Source of the DNA: Haloferula rosea
GTDB lineage: Bacteria > Verrucomicrobiota > Verrucomicrobiia > Verrucomicrobiales > Akkermansiaceae
Direction of reading: 5' to 3'
Length of the DNA stretch: 64,000 nt
Assembly: GCF_016595525.1 (NCBI RefSeq)
Contig: NZ_JAENII010000003.1
Span: 186,001 to 250,000 of the forward strand
Shown here: in pieces, positions 39,525 to 47,183 of the stretch
How positions within the stretch are numbered: position 1 is the first letter of the stretch
Layout of the letters: each line of letters opens with the position of its first letter
Position numbers and translations under genes: made by a program
Notes under the pieces: model-generated
What the model saw: only the letters and a program-made list of their open reading frames with translations
Databases searched by the model: none
Told to the model about the DNA's origin: nothing

Positions 39525-42101
39525 TCAGGCTTTCCGGAAAGCCACCTTGCCGCCTTCCAGGTAGGCCTCGATCACATCGCCATCGACGAACTTCCCGTCG
39601 AGCAACTCGAGGGACAACTCGTCCAGCAGATGCTTCTGGATCGCCCGCTTCAGAGGACGCGCGCCATACACCGGGTCATACCCCTGGTTGCCGACGAACT
39701 CCTTCGCATCCGGCGTCAAGGCCAGCCCCAGTCCCTGCTTCGCAAGGCGCTGACGGACCCGCTCGAGCTGATGCGACACGATGGTCGTGAGTTCTTCCCG
39801 GTTGAGCCGGTCGAAGATGATCGTCTCGTCCACCCGGTTGAGGAACTCGGGCCGGAAGTTCGCCCGCAGGGCCTCCATGACCTTCGCCTCACGTTGTTCG
39901 ACATTCTCCTCACCGAGGATGAACTGGGAACCAATGTTCGACGTCATGATCAGCACCGTGTTGCGGAAGTCGACCGTCCGGCCCTGGCCGTCGGTGATCC
40001 GACCGTCGTCCAGAACCTGAAGCAGCACGTTGAACACATCCGGGTGCGCCTTCTCGATCTCATCGAAGAGAACCACCGAGTACGGCTTCCGTCGTACGTG
40101 CTCCGACAACTGCCCGCCTTCGTCATAGCCGACGTAGCCGGGAGGCGCTCCGATCAGACGCGCCACGCTGTGTTTCTCCATGTACTCGGACATGTCGATG
40201 CGGACCATCGCCGACTCGTCGTCGAAGAGGAACTCCGCCAGCGCCTTGCTCAGCTCGGTCTTGCCCACACCGGTCGGCCCGAGGAAGAGGAACGAGCCGA
40301 TCGGCCGGTTCTCATCCTGCAGACCCGCCCGGGCGCGGCGGACCGCGTTCGACACGGCGTTCACCGCGGACTTCTGGCCCACGACGCGGTCGCCGAGCCG
40401 TTGTTCCATCTGCACGAGCTTCTCCTTCTCACCCTCCTGCAGGCGACTGACGGGAATGCCGGTCCACGATGAAACCACACGGGCCACATCCTCTTCCGTC
40501 ACCTCCTCCTTCAGCATGGCACCACTCTTCTGCAGCGCTGCCAAATCCTGCTGCGCGGCCTCGAGGGCCGACTCGGCGTCAGGAAGCTGCCCATAGGTGA
40601 TCTCGGAGGCACGACTCAGGTCGCCGATCCGTTTCGCCTGTTCGGCTTCGGTCTTCAGCGAGTCAATGATCCCCTGCTGCTCGCGCACCCGGTCAATGAC
40701 CTCCTTCTCATTGCGCCACTGCGCGGTGAGCCCGGCGGACTGCTCCTGCAGATTCGCCTGCTCTTCCCTCACCTTGGCAAGTCGGGCCTCGGACGCCTTG
40801 TCGCTCTCCTTCTCTAGGGCCTTCTTCTCCATCTCAAGTTGAAGGATCTGCCTCTCGAGCTCATCGATCTCGGTCGGCATCGAATCCAACTCGATCTTCA
40901 GACGGGAAGCAGCTTCATCCACCAGGTCCACCGCCTTGTCCGGCAGGAACCGGTCGGAGATGTAGCGGTCCGACATGGTGGCTGCCGCCACCAGGGCACC
41001 ATCCTGAATGCGCACCCCGTGGTGCACTTCATACCGCTCCTTCAAGCCCCGCAGAATCGCGATGCTGTCTTCCACCGACGGCTCTCCCACCATCACGGGC
41101 TGGAATCGCCGCTCCAAGGCCGCGTCCTTCTCCACGTGCTTGCGGTACTCGTCCAGGGTGGTCGCACCGATCGTGCGCAACTCGCCACGGGCGAGCTGGG
41201 GTTTGAGCAGGTTGGCCGCATCCACGGCGCCTTCGCTCGCTCCCGCCCCGACGATCGTATGCAGCTCGTCGATGAAGAGAACGATCTCTCCGTCGGACTC
41301 CGTGACTTCCTTCAGGAAAGCCTTCAGGCGATCCTCGAACTCACCACGGTACTTCGCCCCCGCAAGCATCCCGCCGATATCCAGCGAGATGATGCGCTTG
41401 CCCTTCATCGAGTCCGGCACATCCCCGGACACAATCCGCCGGGCCAGCCCCTCGACGATGGCGGTCTTGCCTACCCCAGGCTCACCGATGAGAACCGGGT
41501 TGTTCTTGGTCCGGCGCGAAAGCACCTGCAGCACCCGGCGGATCTCATGATCCCGGCCGATCACCGGGTCGATCTTGCCTTCCCGGGCCCGCTCGGTGAG
41601 ATCGGTGCCATACTTCTCGAGAGTCTGGTATTTCCCCTCCGGATTCTCATCCGTCACCTTCTGTGAACCACGGATCGCCGACAGCGCTTCCTTCGCCTTC
41701 GCTTCGTCCAGACCGGCTTCGCCAAGCAGCTTACCGACCGGTGAATCCGCCTTCAGCGAGCCGAGAAGGAAATGCTCAACCGACAGATACTCATCCCCCA
41801 TCGATTCGCGCACCTCATCCGCTGCCTCCAGCGTAGAGCGCAGCTCGTAGCTGAGCTGAGGTTGTGAGGATGCCCCTTCTTGCCGGGGCTCCTTTTCCAA
41901 TGCCGTCGCAACCGCAGCCTTCAGCCGGGTCACGTCAATGTCGGCACCTTGCAGAATCGGCACCGTAATGCCTCCCTCCTGTTGCAGCAGGGCAAGCATC
42001 ACGTGCACGCTCTTCAGCTCAGGATGCGACGACTTCGAAGCGAGCCGTTGGGCCGCCTGAAGCGCTTCCTGAAGCTTGGTTGTCATTTTGTCCAATCCCA
42101 T
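39525..42101 (-). CDS. clpB: ATP-dependent chaperone ClpB
   Basis: An 858-residue Hsp100 disaggregase. N domain (about 1-150), first AAA domain with Walker [14 protein letters not shown] near residue 206, a coiled-coil middle domain (about 400-540, [20 protein letters not shown]), and the second AAA domain with [16 protein letters not shown] near 606. It resolubilises aggregated proteins with DnaK. Length is normal; no mutated key residues noticed. Preceded by an AT-rich promoter region, which suggests inducible control. Confidence 0.97.
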
Positions 42102-42338: not shown

Positions 42339-43520
42339 ATGCGTGCTCTCTGTATCCTCCTCGATTCTGTTGGCTGTGGCCATGCTCCGGACGCCGTCAC
42401 CTTCGGCGACGAAGGTGCCGATACGCTGGGACACCTCTACGAGCGTATCCCCGGTTTCGAGCTCCCCACCCTGGCATCCCTCGGCCTGCACGAGGTGCTG
42501 CGCTCCCTCAATCCGGCCTCTCCTGCCTCGACGGTTCCCACTCACCCGAATGCCGGCTTCTGCCACCTCACCGAGCGCTCGGCGGGCAAGGACACCACCA
42601 CCGGCCACTGGGAGTTGATGGGCGCGGTGAACGACGAACCCTTCGCCACCTTCAAATCGTTCCCGGAAGAACTCGTGCGCGAATTGGAATGCCGCGGCCG
42701 CTGCCATTTTATCGGCAATGAAGCCGCCTCGGGCACGGAGATCATCCACCGACTCGGAGGCGAGCACTGCGCCAGCGGACGCCCCATCCTCTACACCAGC
42801 GCCGACTCCGTCCTCCAGATCGCCGCCCATGAGAACCCGGCCGTGTTCGGGCTCGACCGGCTCCTCGAGCTGTGCCGCACCTCCCGGGAACTGCTCGACG
42901 AGCGAGGCATCCGGATTGGCCGGGTCATCGCCCGCCCTTTCGTCGGTGGCACGCCGGAAACCTTCCAGCGCACATCCAACCGCCACGACTACTCGCTCAT
43001 GCCCCCACCCACGGTGCTGAATCGTCTCAGCGACGCCGGTGTGAAGACCATCGGCATCGGCAAAATTTCCGACATCTTTGCCGGCTCCGGCATCGATGAG
43101 AGCCATCCCACCCGATCCAATGCCGACGGCATGGCGACGATCGAGCGCATCTGGGACGAGCATGACGGCAGCCCGCAGTTCATCTTCGCCAACCTTGTCG
43201 ATTTTGACATGCTCTACGGCCACCGCCGGGACCCCGAGGGCTATGCCACCGCCTTGCACGAGTTCGATGCCTGGCTCTCCGGCTTCCTGCCGAAAGTCGG
43301 AGCCGACTTCCTCATGATCACCGCGGATCATGGCAACGACCCCTACTTCACCGGCACCGACCACACCCGCGAGCGGGTTCCCCTGCTTACCCTGAATGCC
43401 CCGGAGAACCCGACCACCTGCACCTTCCACGAAGTCGCCGATCTGCTGCGGGCCCATTTCCACGAAATCTATCACACATCGGCTTCCCAGACCGTGGCTG
43501 CAGGCTCGACACCCGCTTGA
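42339..43520 (+). CDS. deoB: phosphopentomutase
   Basis: A 393-residue enzyme that converts ribose-1-phosphate or deoxyribose-1-phosphate to the 5-phosphate, linking nucleoside breakdown to central metabolism. Alkaline-phosphatase-like fold: metal-binding ILLDSVGCGHAPDA at the start, GKDTTTGHWELMG with the phosphorylated threonine, and late FANLVDFDMLYGHRRD and TADHGNDPYFTGTDHTRE. Length equals the family norm. It is followed by deoA 19 bases later and a nuclease-like gene, forming a nucleoside-scavenging operon. Confidence 0.95.
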   Translation: MRALCILLDSVGCGHAPDAVTFGDEGADTLGHLYERIPGFELPTLASLGLHEVLRSLNPASPASTVPTHPNAGFCHLTERSAGKDTTTGHWELMGAVNDEPFATFKSFPEELVRELECRGRCHFIGNEAASGTEIIHRLGGEHCASGRPILYTSADSVLQIAAHENPAVFGLDRLLELCRTSRELLDERGIRIGRVIARPFVGGTPETFQRTSNRHDYSLMPPPTVLNRLSDAGVKTIGIGKISDIFAGSGIDESHPTRSNADGMATIERIWDEHDGSPQFIFANLVDFDMLYGHRRDPEGYATALHEFDAWLSGFLPKVGADFLMITADHGNDPYFTGTDHTRERVPLLTLNAPENPTTCTFHEVADLLRAHFHEIYHTSASQTVAAGSTPA

Positions 43521-43539: not shown

Positions 43540-44781
43540 ATGCTTCCCCACGTCCCCACCCTGATCGGGCGCAAACGCGATGGTGAGTCCCTCGCCAGCG
43601 GCGAGATCCGCGCACTCATCGAAGGCTACACCCAGGGCGAAGTCCCCGACTACCAGATGTCGGCCTTCGCCATGGCGGTCTATTTCAAGGGCATGAACGC
43701 CGTCGAGACCGCGGCACTCACACAGGCCATGCTCGAGAGCGGTGAAACCTTCACCCATCCCGCAGACCACCCGCCGGTGATCGACAAGCACTCCACCGGA
43801 GGCATCGGCGACAAGGTGTCCCTTCCCCTCGCCCCACTCCTCGCCTGCACCGGCGCCTGGGTCCCGATGGTCTCAGGCCGTGGACTCGGCATCACCGGCG
43901 GCACCCTGGACAAGCTCGAATCCATTCCCGGCTTCAAGGTCGGGCTTGGCCTCGAAGACGCCCAGCAGCAACTCGCCCGACTCGGAGTGGTCATGATGGG
44001 GCAGACCGCTTCCTTCTGCCCCGCCGACCGCAAGCTCTACTCACTGCGCGACGTCACCGGCACCGTCGCCTCCATCCCGCTCATCACCGCCTCCATCATG
44101 TCGAAGAAACTGGCGGAGTCGCTCGACCGACTCGTGCTCGACGTGAAATACGGCAGCGGTGCCTTCATGAAAACGAAGGAAGACGCCACGGCTCTGGCCG
44201 ACTCGATGATCGCGGTGGGCAAGGAAATGGGAGTCGATGTGCAAGCCTGCCTCAACCCCATGTCCGAACCCCTCGGGCGGGCCGTCGGCAATGCGCTCGA
44301 AGTCGCCGAAGCCATCGACTGCCTCAACGGAGCTGGCCCCGCCGACCTGCGCGAACTCGTCCTCGATCTCGCCGAAACCGTGACCTCCAAAAGCCGCAAG
44401 GAACTGGCACGCCTCCTCGATGACGGCACCGCACGAGCGAAATTCGATGAACTGGTCGCCGCCCAAGGAGGCTCACCCGCCGACCTGGAGAATCTAACAA
44501 CTATCCATACCGCCCCGCTCATCGAGGAAGTTCCCGCGCCCGACACCGGCACGATCACGACCGTGGATGCAGGTCTCATCGGCCAGGCCGCCCTGCAACT
44601 TGGTGCCGGCCGCGCCCGGGCCACCGACCCGGTCGATTTCTCCGTCGGCTTCGACCAGCTCGTGAAGTGCGGCGAATCCGTGCACCAGGGGAATCCGCTC
44701 TGCCGGATCCACGCGCGCACCCGGGTCGATTTCGAGATGGCCGAGGCACTCATTGACCAAGCCATCGTCATCGAGCCATGA
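43540..44781 (+). CDS. deoA: thymidine/pyrimidine-nucleoside phosphorylase
   Basis: A 413-residue phosphorylase that splits thymidine (and perhaps uridine) with phosphate to the base and (deoxy)ribose-1-phosphate. The signature VIDKHSTGGIGDKVSLPLAP is near residues 78-97, followed by SGRGLGITGGTLDKLESIPG, SIMSKKLAE and VKYGSGAFMK. The ATG at 43540 is chosen; the open frame continues upstream over deoB but is not family-like. It ends in TGA overlapping the next ATG, so the three genes are translated together. Confidence 0.94.
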   Translation: MLPHVPTLIGRKRDGESLASGEIRALIEGYTQGEVPDYQMSAFAMAVYFKGMNAVETAALTQAMLESGETFTHPADHPPVIDKHSTGGIGDKVSLPLAPLLACTGAWVPMVSGRGLGITGGTLDKLESIPGFKVGLGLEDAQQQLARLGVVMMGQTASFCPADRKLYSLRDVTGTVASIPLITASIMSKKLAESLDRLVLDVKYGSGAFMKTKEDATALADSMIAVGKEMGVDVQACLNPMSEPLGRAVGNALEVAEAIDCLNGAGPADLRELVLDLAETVTSKSRKELARLLDDGTARAKFDELVAAQGGSPADLENLTTIHTAPLIEEVPAPDTGTITTVDAGLIGQAALQLGAGRARATDPVDFSVGFDQLVKCGESVHQGNPLCRIHARTRVDFEMAEALIDQAIVIEP

Positions 44782-45584
44782 AACCATCCCCAGTCCGCCG
44801 CGCCATCGGCATCGTCCTCCTCGCCGGACTCATCGGCTTCTTCATCTGGAACCTCACCCGACCCAGAAGTTTCCCGCAGACGCCTCGAATGACCGAGGGC
44901 AAACAGGCCGCCGGCATCCGGGCCCTCCGCGAGTCCGCCGAGCGCGACGCCCGCTTGGTGAAGCAATTGATCGAGGAAGATCTGGGCAAACGGCGGTTCC
45001 ACTTTTCCACCGTGCTCAAGGCAAGCTCAGGCAAGCAGGTCATCAAGCTCGACCCCGACGACCCCGTCCACACTCTGCTCCTCGAGCGCCTCGACCATCA
45101 CCTCGCGACCATCACCGCCACGCTCAGCAAGGACGACTCACCCGCGCGATCCCACCGCCGCATCAACGAAGTCTCACGCCATTTCGAGGATGCCCTCATC
45201 ACCGCCCTCGATGCAGAAGACGACTGGGAGGCCGGCATCCCGGCAACCCGGGAAGGAAAGGCGCAGAGAAGCGGCTACCCCGACATCCGCGTGGTCCACC
45301 AACCCTCCTCGAAGGTATTCTACCTCGACCCGAAGCTGGTCGAAGAAACCTCATGGGACAGCAGCTTCCGTTCGTTCTACTTCGAGCCAAAGACCGAGAG
45401 CCTCAAGGTCAATGACCACGCGGTGCACCTGCTCGTCGGCATCGGCCACGATGGAAACAGCGGCGAATGGAAGTTCACCGAATGGAAGGTCGTCGACCTC
45501 GCATCCCTGCAACTCCGCCTGAAGCCGGAATTCCAAGCCTCGAACGCCGACCTCTATCCGAGCGAATCGGAAGAAGCCGAATGA
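44778..45584 (+). CDS. membrane-anchored protein with PD-(D/E)XK nuclease-like motif
   Basis: A 268-residue protein, ATG overlapping the deoA stop (ATGA). The N-terminus (KPSPVRRAIGIVLLAGLIGF) is a single membrane anchor, with the remainder probably in the periplasm. Residues 167-186 (YPD, 14 residues, then DPK) fit the PD-(D/E)XK nuclease pattern: Pro168-Asp169, Asp184 and Lys186, with a Glu in the preceding helix (Glu137). Nothing else is recognised. If the assignment holds, the enzyme could cleave DNA outside the cytoplasm and the deoA/deoB products would use the resulting deoxynucleosides. This is an inference from motif and operon only. Confidence 0.5.
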   Translation: MKPSPVRRAIGIVLLAGLIGFFIWNLTRPRSFPQTPRMTEGKQAAGIRALRESAERDARLVKQLIEEDLGKRRFHFSTVLKASSGKQVIKLDPDDPVHTLLLERLDHHLATITATLSKDDSPARSHRRINEVSRHFEDALITALDAEDDWEAGIPATREGKAQRSGYPDIRVVHQPSSKVFYLDPKLVEETSWDSSFRSFYFEPKTESLKVNDHAVHLLVGIGHDGNSGEWKFTEWKVVDLASLQLRLKPEFQASNADLYPSESEEAE

Positions 45585-45588
45585 GCCA

Positions 45589-46107
45589 TCACTTCTGCTC
45601 GAACTTCACCGCCGTTCCGTACGCGAACACTTCCGCACACCCCACCGCCTTGCCCTGGCCGTTGGAAATGGTCGAGGTCTCAATACGGCAGTTGATGAAC
45701 ATGTCCGCGTCCGGGCAGGCCTCCTTCATCCGCAGCAGCGCTTCACGCCGCCCTCTTGAGACCACCGAGGCATAGCTCTTCATCTCGCCTCCGAAAATCA
45801 TGCGGAACGACGACAGCCAGCGCTTGAAATAGTCGACCGAGACCACCACCGAGCCGACCGCGAGTTCGCTCGATGCCACCGACCGTTCGCCGGGAAGGTG
45901 CTTGCCGGTGAGAGCGACCCGACCTTGGGAGTGAATCTCCCGCTCGACGAGTTCACGCAGGTGCTTCCTTTCCACACTGCGCCCGATCAGCCACGTCAGC
46001 AGCAGCCCCCAGAACGGCATCGTGTAGAGCAGCAGCAGGACGATGTAGAACCATCCGTTCGCGTCCCCCAGATCAGTGGTTTGCGGAGAATCCATGGCAG
46101 GCATCAT
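45589..46107 (-). CDS. YbjQ-family protein with membrane anchor
   Basis: About 172 residues. A membrane segment near residues 19-42 (WFYIVLLLLYTMPFWGLLLT) precedes a YbjQ/DUF74 domain, which includes YFKRWLSSFRMIFGGEMKSY and a late CRIETSTISNGQGKAVGCAEVFAYGTAV. The YbjQ fold is a pentameric beta-barrel-like domain of unknown function. The gene starts (ATG at 46107) overlapping the stop of the preceding YbjQ gene by ATGA, so the two are coupled. It has a distinct membrane anchor that the first copy lacks. Confidence 0.85.
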   Translation of the reverse strand: MMPAMDSPQTTDLGDANGWFYIVLLLLYTMPFWGLLLTWLIGRSVERKHLRELVEREIHSQGRVALTGKHLPGERSVASSELAVGSVVVSVDYFKRWLSSFRMIFGGEMKSYASVVSRGRREALLRMKEACPDADMFINCRIETSTISNGQGKAVGCAEVFAYGTAVKFEQK

Positions 46108-46418
46108 TCACATTTCACCGCCGTCCCGTAGGCCAGCATCTCGGATGCCCCCTGCGTCACCGTGGTCGTTGTGAAGCGCACATTCACCACCGCATTCGCA
46201 CCCATCGACTGAGCCTGCTCGACCATCCTCTGCGTCGCCTGCTCGCGGGCCTCCATCATCAACTCGGTGTAGCCCTTGAGTTCCCCACCCACGAGGTTCT
46301 TCAAGCCGGCCATGAAATCCCGGCCCATGTGCTTCGCCCGGATCGTGCTCCCCTGCACCAATCCGAGGTGCTCCACGATGGTTTTGCCCGGAATGGTTTC
46401 GATATTCGTGATGGTCAT
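46104..46418 (-). CDS. YbjQ-family protein
   Basis: A 104-residue protein with the usual YbjQ/DUF74 layout: TITNIETIPGKTIVEHLGLV, GRDFMAGLKNLVGGELKGYT, and GANAVVNVRFTTTTVTQGAS with a final AYGTAVKCE. No signal peptide. Function of the family is not established. The longer upstream open frame is not used here; the ATG at 46418 is the canonical start. Paired with the anchored YbjQ gene downstream; divergent from the LolA-like gene. Confidence 0.9.
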   Translation of the reverse strand: MTITNIETIPGKTIVEHLGLVQGSTIRAKHMGRDFMAGLKNLVGGELKGYTELMMEAREQATQRMVEQAQSMGANAVVNVRFTTTTVTQGASEMLAYGTAVKCE

Positions 46419-46547
46419 GATGGTGTGGAAGGCGCTTCCTTCGCGACCATCCTCTCGGAGGAGCCCGACCATGAAAAGCCGATAAGCGCGCACCGCCCGA
46501 AATGGTTTCTTCTTGGCAAATCCACCCAAACACCACCGACTGAATCC

Positions 46548-47183
46548 ATGCGCCTGCTTCCCATCATCGTGGCCCTCGCCTGCTCCGTTCTCCACGCCGA
46601 AGTGGATACCGGCCCGATCGAAGCGTGGCTCGCCCGTCAGGCCGGCATCAAGACGCTTCAGGCCGACTTCATCCAAGAGCGCAAGCTGGCTGCCCTGAAA
46701 AAGCCCGTGAGCACCCCCGGAACCATGACCATGGTCAAGGGAGGAAGCATGCGCTGGGACCTTGGCCAACCCACCAAGACCACCGCCATCTCCGACGGCA
46801 CGACCATCCAATTGATCGACCTCGAGAAGAAACGCGCCCGCTCCATGGACGCCGACTCCTCCCGGGCCAGGGCCTTCACCCTGCTCGGCGACTCGGCCCT
46901 CAACGGTGGCATCGAAGGATTCACAAAAGTGTTCGAACTCATCGAGGCCAAGGAAACCAACGGGATCTATCAGGTGACCGCCCGCCCGCGCGATCGCTCG
47001 CTGCGAAAACAGATCCCGTGGGTATTCTTCGACATCGACCCGAAGCGCAAGGAACTCCGCGCCCTCGAAGTTCAGCTGGAAGACAAGTCACGCATCCGAA
47101 CCATCTTCACCAAGACCCGGTTCAACCAACCAGTCCCCAAGGACCGCTTCACCTTCGACCTGTCCGGATACCAGGTCCGTTAG
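46548..47183 (+). CDS. LolA-like outer-membrane lipoprotein carrier
   Basis: A 211-residue periplasmic protein from the ATG at 46548. Signal peptide RLLPIIVALACSVLHA. The mature part has the LolA pattern: IKTLQADFIQERKLAALKKP, then MVKGGSMRWDLGQPTKTTAI and later KELRALEVQLED. LolA proteins carry lipoproteins from the inner to the outer membrane in an unclosed beta barrel. No lolB or lolCDE is in the window. Identification is at family level; a specific substrate is not known. Confidence 0.85.
   Translation: MRLLPIIVALACSVLHAEVDTGPIEAWLARQAGIKTLQADFIQERKLAALKKPVSTPGTMTMVKGGSMRWDLGQPTKTTAISDGTTIQLIDLEKKRARSMDADSSRARAFTLLGDSALNGGIEGFTKVFELIEAKETNGIYQVTARPRDRSLRKQIPWVFFDIDPKRKELRALEVQLEDKSRIRTIFTKTRFNQPVPKDRFTFDLSGYQVR

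Follow-up and report, generated by a model that had tools for sequence, protein, structure and literature searches.

The locus described here raises the question of what a predicted nuclease that resembles type II restriction enzymes and carries an export-type segment does in an operon of nucleoside catabolism. The gene lies in a 64,000-nucleotide stretch of Haloferula rosea DNA (the window), to which all coordinates refer. It occupies positions 44778–45584 of the plus strand, starts with ATG, and encodes a protein of 268 residues. It is preceded by deoB, encoding phosphopentomutase (42339–43520, plus strand; NCBIfam NF003766, E 9.4e-132, and TIGR01696 above cut-off), and deoA, encoding pyrimidine-nucleoside/thymidine phosphorylase (43540–44781, plus strand; NF004490, E 1.2e-153, and TIGR02644, E 1.5e-149, both above cut-off). 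The longest open reading frame of deoA begins at 43396, and the true start is likely the ATG at 43540, 19 nucleotides past the deoB stop, because homology begins there. The initial annotation had placed the nuclease gene third in a deoB-deoA operon; both upstream genes are confirmed by equivalog or subfamily models of NCBIfam, and the ATGA stop-start overlap that it had noted between deoA and the nuclease gene is present at 44778–44781 (plus strand). The divergent upstream neighbour clpB (39525–42101, minus strand; Pfam Clp_N, AAA_2, and ClpB_D2-small) lies outside the proposed function.

The nuclease domain spans approximately residues 73–260 (44994–45557), as judged from AlphaFold models and conservation. 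The PD-(D/E)XK pattern claimed for it, Glu137, Pro168-Asp169 and, after 14 residues, Asp184-x-Lys186, is found exactly as stated. Glu137 (codon 45186–45188), Pro168 and Asp169 (45279–45284), and Lys186 are invariant in all 63 aligned homologues, and position 184 is an aspartate in 58 and a glutamate in five of them (Asp184-Pro185-Lys186, 45327–45335; domain and codons are all on the plus strand). The other residues invariant in the 63-row alignment are Arg128, Asn130, Gly166, Tyr167, Phe200, Lys210, Lys249, Glu251, Asn256, and Tyr260. AlphaFold2 predicted the full-length protein from a 51-row alignment with a pLDDT of 94.7 and a pTM of 0.79; the model consists of an N-terminal helix (residues 5–27), a long helix (36–66), and the nuclease domain. 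The domain alone, predicted from 63 rows, reached a pLDDT of 93.6 and a pTM of 0.88. In the model, Glu137 is located within helix 129–145, Pro168-Asp169 immediately N-terminal of strand 170–174, and Asp184-Pro185-Lys186 in strand 179–189. The active site of EcoRV is formed by Glu45, Asp74, Asp90, and Lys92. The signature with an acidic residue in the upstream helix, the alpha-beta core, and the positioning of the motifs on adjacent strands in the model indicate that the protein belongs to the PD-(D/E)XK superfamily. By its predicted fold and active site the product looks like an EcoRV-class endonuclease, and it presumably cleaves DNA in a metal-dependent manner.

The top rows of a Foldseek search of the PDB were mostly restriction enzymes (EcoRV, SwaI, HincII, BglI, and SfiI), with E values of 2e-3 or worse and low TM-scores of 0.25–0.45 for the best rows. 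Since these E values exceed 1e-3 and the TM-scores are low, the fold assignment rests on the Z-scores of VIA realignments, the motif, and a PADLOC profile. SwaI was realigned with Z-scores of 10.8 (3.5 Å over 146 residues) and 10.7 (3.8 Å over 147), well above the 6.8 of the unrelated human Rep15, which EcoRV (8.6 and 8.5) exceeded by only about 1.7; HincII reached 7.8, BglI 6.6 and 6.5, SfiI 6.4 and 6.3, and archaeal Hjc resolvases 5.9. Sequence identity in the SwaI and EcoRV alignments is only 13–17%. The PADLOC REase_II model PDLC03511 matches all 63 members (E 7.2e-17 for the window domain), and also one of 14 control genomes, that of M. jannaschii. The PD-(D/E)XK assignment of the initial annotation was therefore right, and can be narrowed to an EcoRV-class family whose AlphaFold models resemble type II restriction enzymes. 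The window family is similar to SwaI, EcoRV, and HincII, and more distantly to BglI and SfiI, in its predicted core fold, in the helix glutamate, the PD and D/E-x-K motifs, and in the REase_II profile match. It differs from them in its N-terminal export or anchor segment, in having no methyltransferase found alongside, and in its linkage to nucleoside catabolism.

Of 97 related genomes, 50, including that of H. rosea, carry the nuclease gene according to a protein search that a 51-sequence profile confirmed. Sampling across the phylum gave matches in 23 of 387 genomes, of which 22 belong to the class of H. rosea; the remaining match, from another class, is weak and partial. The scan of genome contigs yielded one relative, L031. 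The homologue set used for counts of export signals and linkage contains 64 loci, and the alignment and tree contain the 63 other than L123 (genome G451), a homologue with a short, interrupted frame that may be a pseudogene. L120 (G163; 33 positions, E 3.3e-5) was left out of the set. L081 (G028; E 8.4e-4) was dropped, as it reads as a GDSL-type hydrolase and was not recovered by the profile.

Searches by sequence against Pfam, NCBIfam, and PHROGs yielded no consistent match for the family. Among 51 members, 14 Pfam families matched at E values of up to 0.1, none of them in more than two members and none an established nuclease family, extracellular nucleases included. One of these matches, of the window protein to Sua5 (E 0.06, under the cut-off), was obtained for one of the 51 members only and was rejected. 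Searched against the PDB by sequence, the window protein retrieved nothing and the profile a single irrelevant match (BST-2, E 0.89), and the BFVD fold search returned nothing with an E value below 1e-3. Periplasmic endonuclease I (EndA/Dns) has a beta-beta-alpha-metal fold. The window family is like EndA/Dns in its predicted role of an exported endonuclease and differs from it in active site and fold; none of the 51 members matches Endonuclease_1 of Pfam. Among the open-access papers retrieved, none describes an exported restriction-enzyme-like nuclease in its title or abstract opening, which is weak evidence of absence.

The membrane segment claimed for the N-terminus is borne out by hydropathy: the highest 14-residue Kyte-Doolittle mean of the window protein is 2.84, starting from residue 10, and the transmembrane or signal-anchor segment is predicted at approximately residues 9–27 (44802–44858, plus strand), in agreement with the model helix 5–27. 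The protein thus looks membrane-anchored. An export-type segment, defined as a 14-residue span with a mean Kyte-Doolittle value of at least 1.6 within the first 50 residues, is predicted in 60 of the 64 homologues; among flanking genes that fall into shared clusters the count is 47 of 183, and among called open reading frames longer than 200 residues it is 88 of 286. The exceptions are L065 (1.33), which has a signal-peptide-like stretch further in, L077 (1.34), probably with a wrong start, L121 (1.59), and L123 with its broken frame. Short signal peptides that look cleavable are seen in several relatives (L045, L052, and L056), and lipobox-like cysteines in others (L055, L061, L069, and L080). 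The membrane segment of the window protein is flanked by arginines on both sides, and its topology is therefore argued mainly from the relatives. These predictions speak against the cytoplasmic location of a restriction-modification enzyme and suggest that the nuclease domain faces the periplasm.

The lack of a methyltransferase in the flanks is a further distinction from restriction-modification. We scanned two genes on each side of the nuclease gene in the 51 loci other than the 13 distant ones, which gave 198 flanking genes by simple open reading frame calling. No methyltransferase-named model was found among the 198 genes in the complete PADLOC lists (E up to 1e-5), and none of the 198 proteins contains the N6/N4 motif [DNS]PP[YFW] or the C5 motif PC-x-[GPSA]-[FWY]-S. 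Judged by these sequences, no cognate methyltransferase is encoded in the scanned flanks, and a remote one is possible. An ordinary cytoplasmic restriction-modification system was rejected on the strength of the export signals and of the scanned flanks, in which no methyltransferase was found. A variant of it would be a restriction enzyme that faces the cytoplasm, with the N-terminal helix as a membrane tether and a methyltransferase encoded elsewhere protecting the chromosome. The fold and the PADLOC match agree with such an enzyme, as does the presence in the same genome of matches to three methyltransferase families on other contigs (C67, C5, C66, and C44, not C33). It is nevertheless highly improbable, given the 198 flanking genes without a methyltransferase match and the cleavable-looking signal peptides and lipoboxes of relatives such as L045, L052, L055, L061, and L080.

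The linkage to nucleoside catabolism extends beyond the window. We searched the window and 63 other loci, with fetched flanks of up to approximately 5 kb, for DeoA using tblastn. Thirteen of the 64 loci (the window, L032–L036, L038, L055, L069, L072, L080, L121, and L124), which belong to families f1, f2, f3, f10, and f51, have deoA upstream in the same orientation at a distance of at most 100 bp, and four more (L037 and L039–L041) have it 2.3–3.5 kb upstream. In L037, L039, and L041, a gene for a secreted PQQ/BamB-like beta-propeller protein is positioned between deoA and the nuclease gene. ATGA-type one-codon overlaps with deoA occur in six loci (the window, L032, L034, L035, L036, and L055). 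deoB precedes deoA also in L032–L035 and in L121, from a distant family, and L079 has deoB alone. The proposed association with deo genes thus holds for five families and is not general: deoA is found within 3.5 kb in 17 of the 64 loci and is absent from the fetched flanks of 47. On the nuclease tree, the deoA-linkage label changes eight times, at least six of them by well-supported branches, so this gene order arose or disappeared several times. Shuffled labels required 12.1 changes on average, and none of 500 shuffles had as few as eight.

Other genes recur beside the nuclease. In 11 loci (L031, L043, L048, L049, L053, L054, L056, L059, L060, L066, and L067), a gene for an MntR/DtxR-type metal regulator (Fe_dep_repress) follows 12–79 bp downstream in the same orientation. 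The gene next to the nuclease is there a regulator and not one for salvage, and the salvage reading leaves this placement unexplained; a link of the regulator to metal-dependent cleavage is possible. A divergent upstream clpB lies within about 0.1–0.45 kb in seven loci (L049, L053, L054, L066, L070, L074, and L075) and beyond deoB in others; in the window, deoB-deoA separates it from the nuclease gene. Four loci (L057, L062, L064, and L077) have a co-oriented transaldolase-family gene 70–107 bp upstream. In family f1 outside the genus of the window, the MntR/DtxR-type gene or transaldolase recur as neighbours instead of deo genes.

Co-occurrence across the 97 related genomes provides evidence independent of gene order. 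A deoA-type phosphorylase (TIGR02644) is encoded in 40 of the 50 genomes with the nuclease (absent from 10) compared with 21 of the 47 others, and the nucleoside transporter NupC (PF07662) in 37 of 50 (absent from 13) compared with 12 of 47. TrkH (PF02386), chosen as an unrelated control in the same sample, occurs in 40 of the 50 and in 25 of the 47 genomes, respectively. In Mantel-Haenszel tests stratified by family, the p values are 2.2e-5 for deoA, 9.7e-8 for NupC, and 0.47 for TrkH, and with additional stratification by three size classes 9.3e-4, 2.2e-6, and 0.66; genomes inside the strata are phylogenetically non-independent, and no species tree underlies these p values. The stratification matters, because TrkH was also associated with the nuclease before it (Fisher p 0.009). 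The co-occurrence with deo genes anticipated for a salvage module is thus seen both in the linked loci and over the 97 genomes, in a part of the family and not throughout it.

Given the computed conservation, predicted fold, export-type segment, methyltransferase-free flanks, deoA linkage, and phyletic co-occurrence, we consider it probable that these proteins form an exported, methyltransferase-free family of EcoRV-fold endonucleases that feeds deoxynucleoside salvage, not restriction-modification. A periplasmic nuclease of a DNA-as-nutrient module had been proposed from the window sequence, and this function is now well supported, though still an inference. None of the three findings that were to count against the proposal, an unrelated fold, loss of the motif residues among homologues, or absence of deo genes beside or along with the family elsewhere, was made; what is added is the restriction-enzyme lineage with export signals and without a partner methyltransferase found. 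The nuclease would cross the cytoplasmic membrane, remaining anchored in the case of the window protein and directed by a cleavable or lipoprotein signal in relatives, and would cut extracellular or periplasmic DNA. The products would be dephosphorylated further by phosphatases to nucleosides, which NupC would import for breakdown by DeoA, DeoB, and DeoC; the H. rosea genome encodes all three Deo enzymes, with one NupC and one DeoC-family match. Such a nuclease would never meet the chromosome and so would need no partner methyltransferase. We are close to evenly divided, leaning slightly against, on whether Verrucomicrobiota turned a type II restriction enzyme, possibly still sequence-specific, into an exported DNA-digesting enzyme that starts a nuclease-NupC-DeoA-DeoB-DeoC pathway. 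The translational coupling of the nuclease to a phosphorylase, even though the nuclease would work outside the cell and the phosphorylase within it, is part of this digestive-enzyme reading and is held with the same reserve, at just under an even chance.

The restriction-enzyme ancestry and the membrane or periplasmic placement would also suit a barrier that intercepts and destroys phage, plasmid, or transforming DNA crossing the periplasm. The neighbourhoods argue against such a barrier, which we regard as rather unlikely: among the Pfam families listed for flanking genes (the best 25 of 61 and the best 25 of 109), the commonest are metabolic or housekeeping (deoA, MntR/DtxR, ClpB, and transaldolase), and the PADLOC matches in the flanks, which include single matches to mad2, mad3, SspH, and others, read as scattered single genes or cross-matches of ClpB and HTH type. 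Moreover, the nuclease is linked to deoA and NupC, and no relatives were found in phages, plasmids, or viral contigs. The same localisation signals would serve an enzyme that remodels extracellular biofilm DNA or processes DNA for uptake instead of salvage, and other secreted nucleases, the Vibrio enzymes Dns and Xds, are reported to have such roles. The coupling to deoA and the co-occurrence with NupC, however, point to nucleosides and make this role unlikely. Finally, the deoA linkage could be incidental, with gene order due to chance and the enzyme acting on another substrate or in another role, such as RNA, damaged DNA, or envelope stress. Most loci lack deoA, and ClpB, MntR/DtxR, and transaldolase recur as neighbours in subclades; against this, linkage in five families with at least six well-supported changes was gained or kept repeatedly, and the phyletic association with deoA and NupC is independent of it. 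We therefore give an incidental linkage very little credence.

Salvage fed by the exported nuclease would fit the overall route known from sediment bacteria that feed on DNA, in which an exported nuclease is combined with nucleoside transport and intracellular catabolism (PMC8289736). The sections of that study considered here report extracellular nucleases, of unspecified family, in some Verrucomicrobiota metagenome-assembled genomes, suggest unknown enzymes as a possibility for a DNA-consuming lineage without known extracellular nucleases, and do not name the window family (PMC8289736). If the salvage role is correct, a restriction-enzyme fold has been reused for nutrition, which would explain how such an enzyme exists without a methyltransferase. 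It would also fill a gap in Verrucomicrobiota, which are abundant in soil and water, with an extracellular enzyme of DNA degradation that is at present unannotated. Defence-finding tools would call these genes type II restriction enzymes, as PADLOC does for 63 of 63 members, and defence surveys may thus count metabolic genes as immunity.

Downstream of the nuclease gene, the window contains two adjacent open reading frames with YbjQ-like C-termini (45589–46107 and 46104–46811, minus strand). The first matches Pfam YbjQ_1, and the second was assigned by eye.
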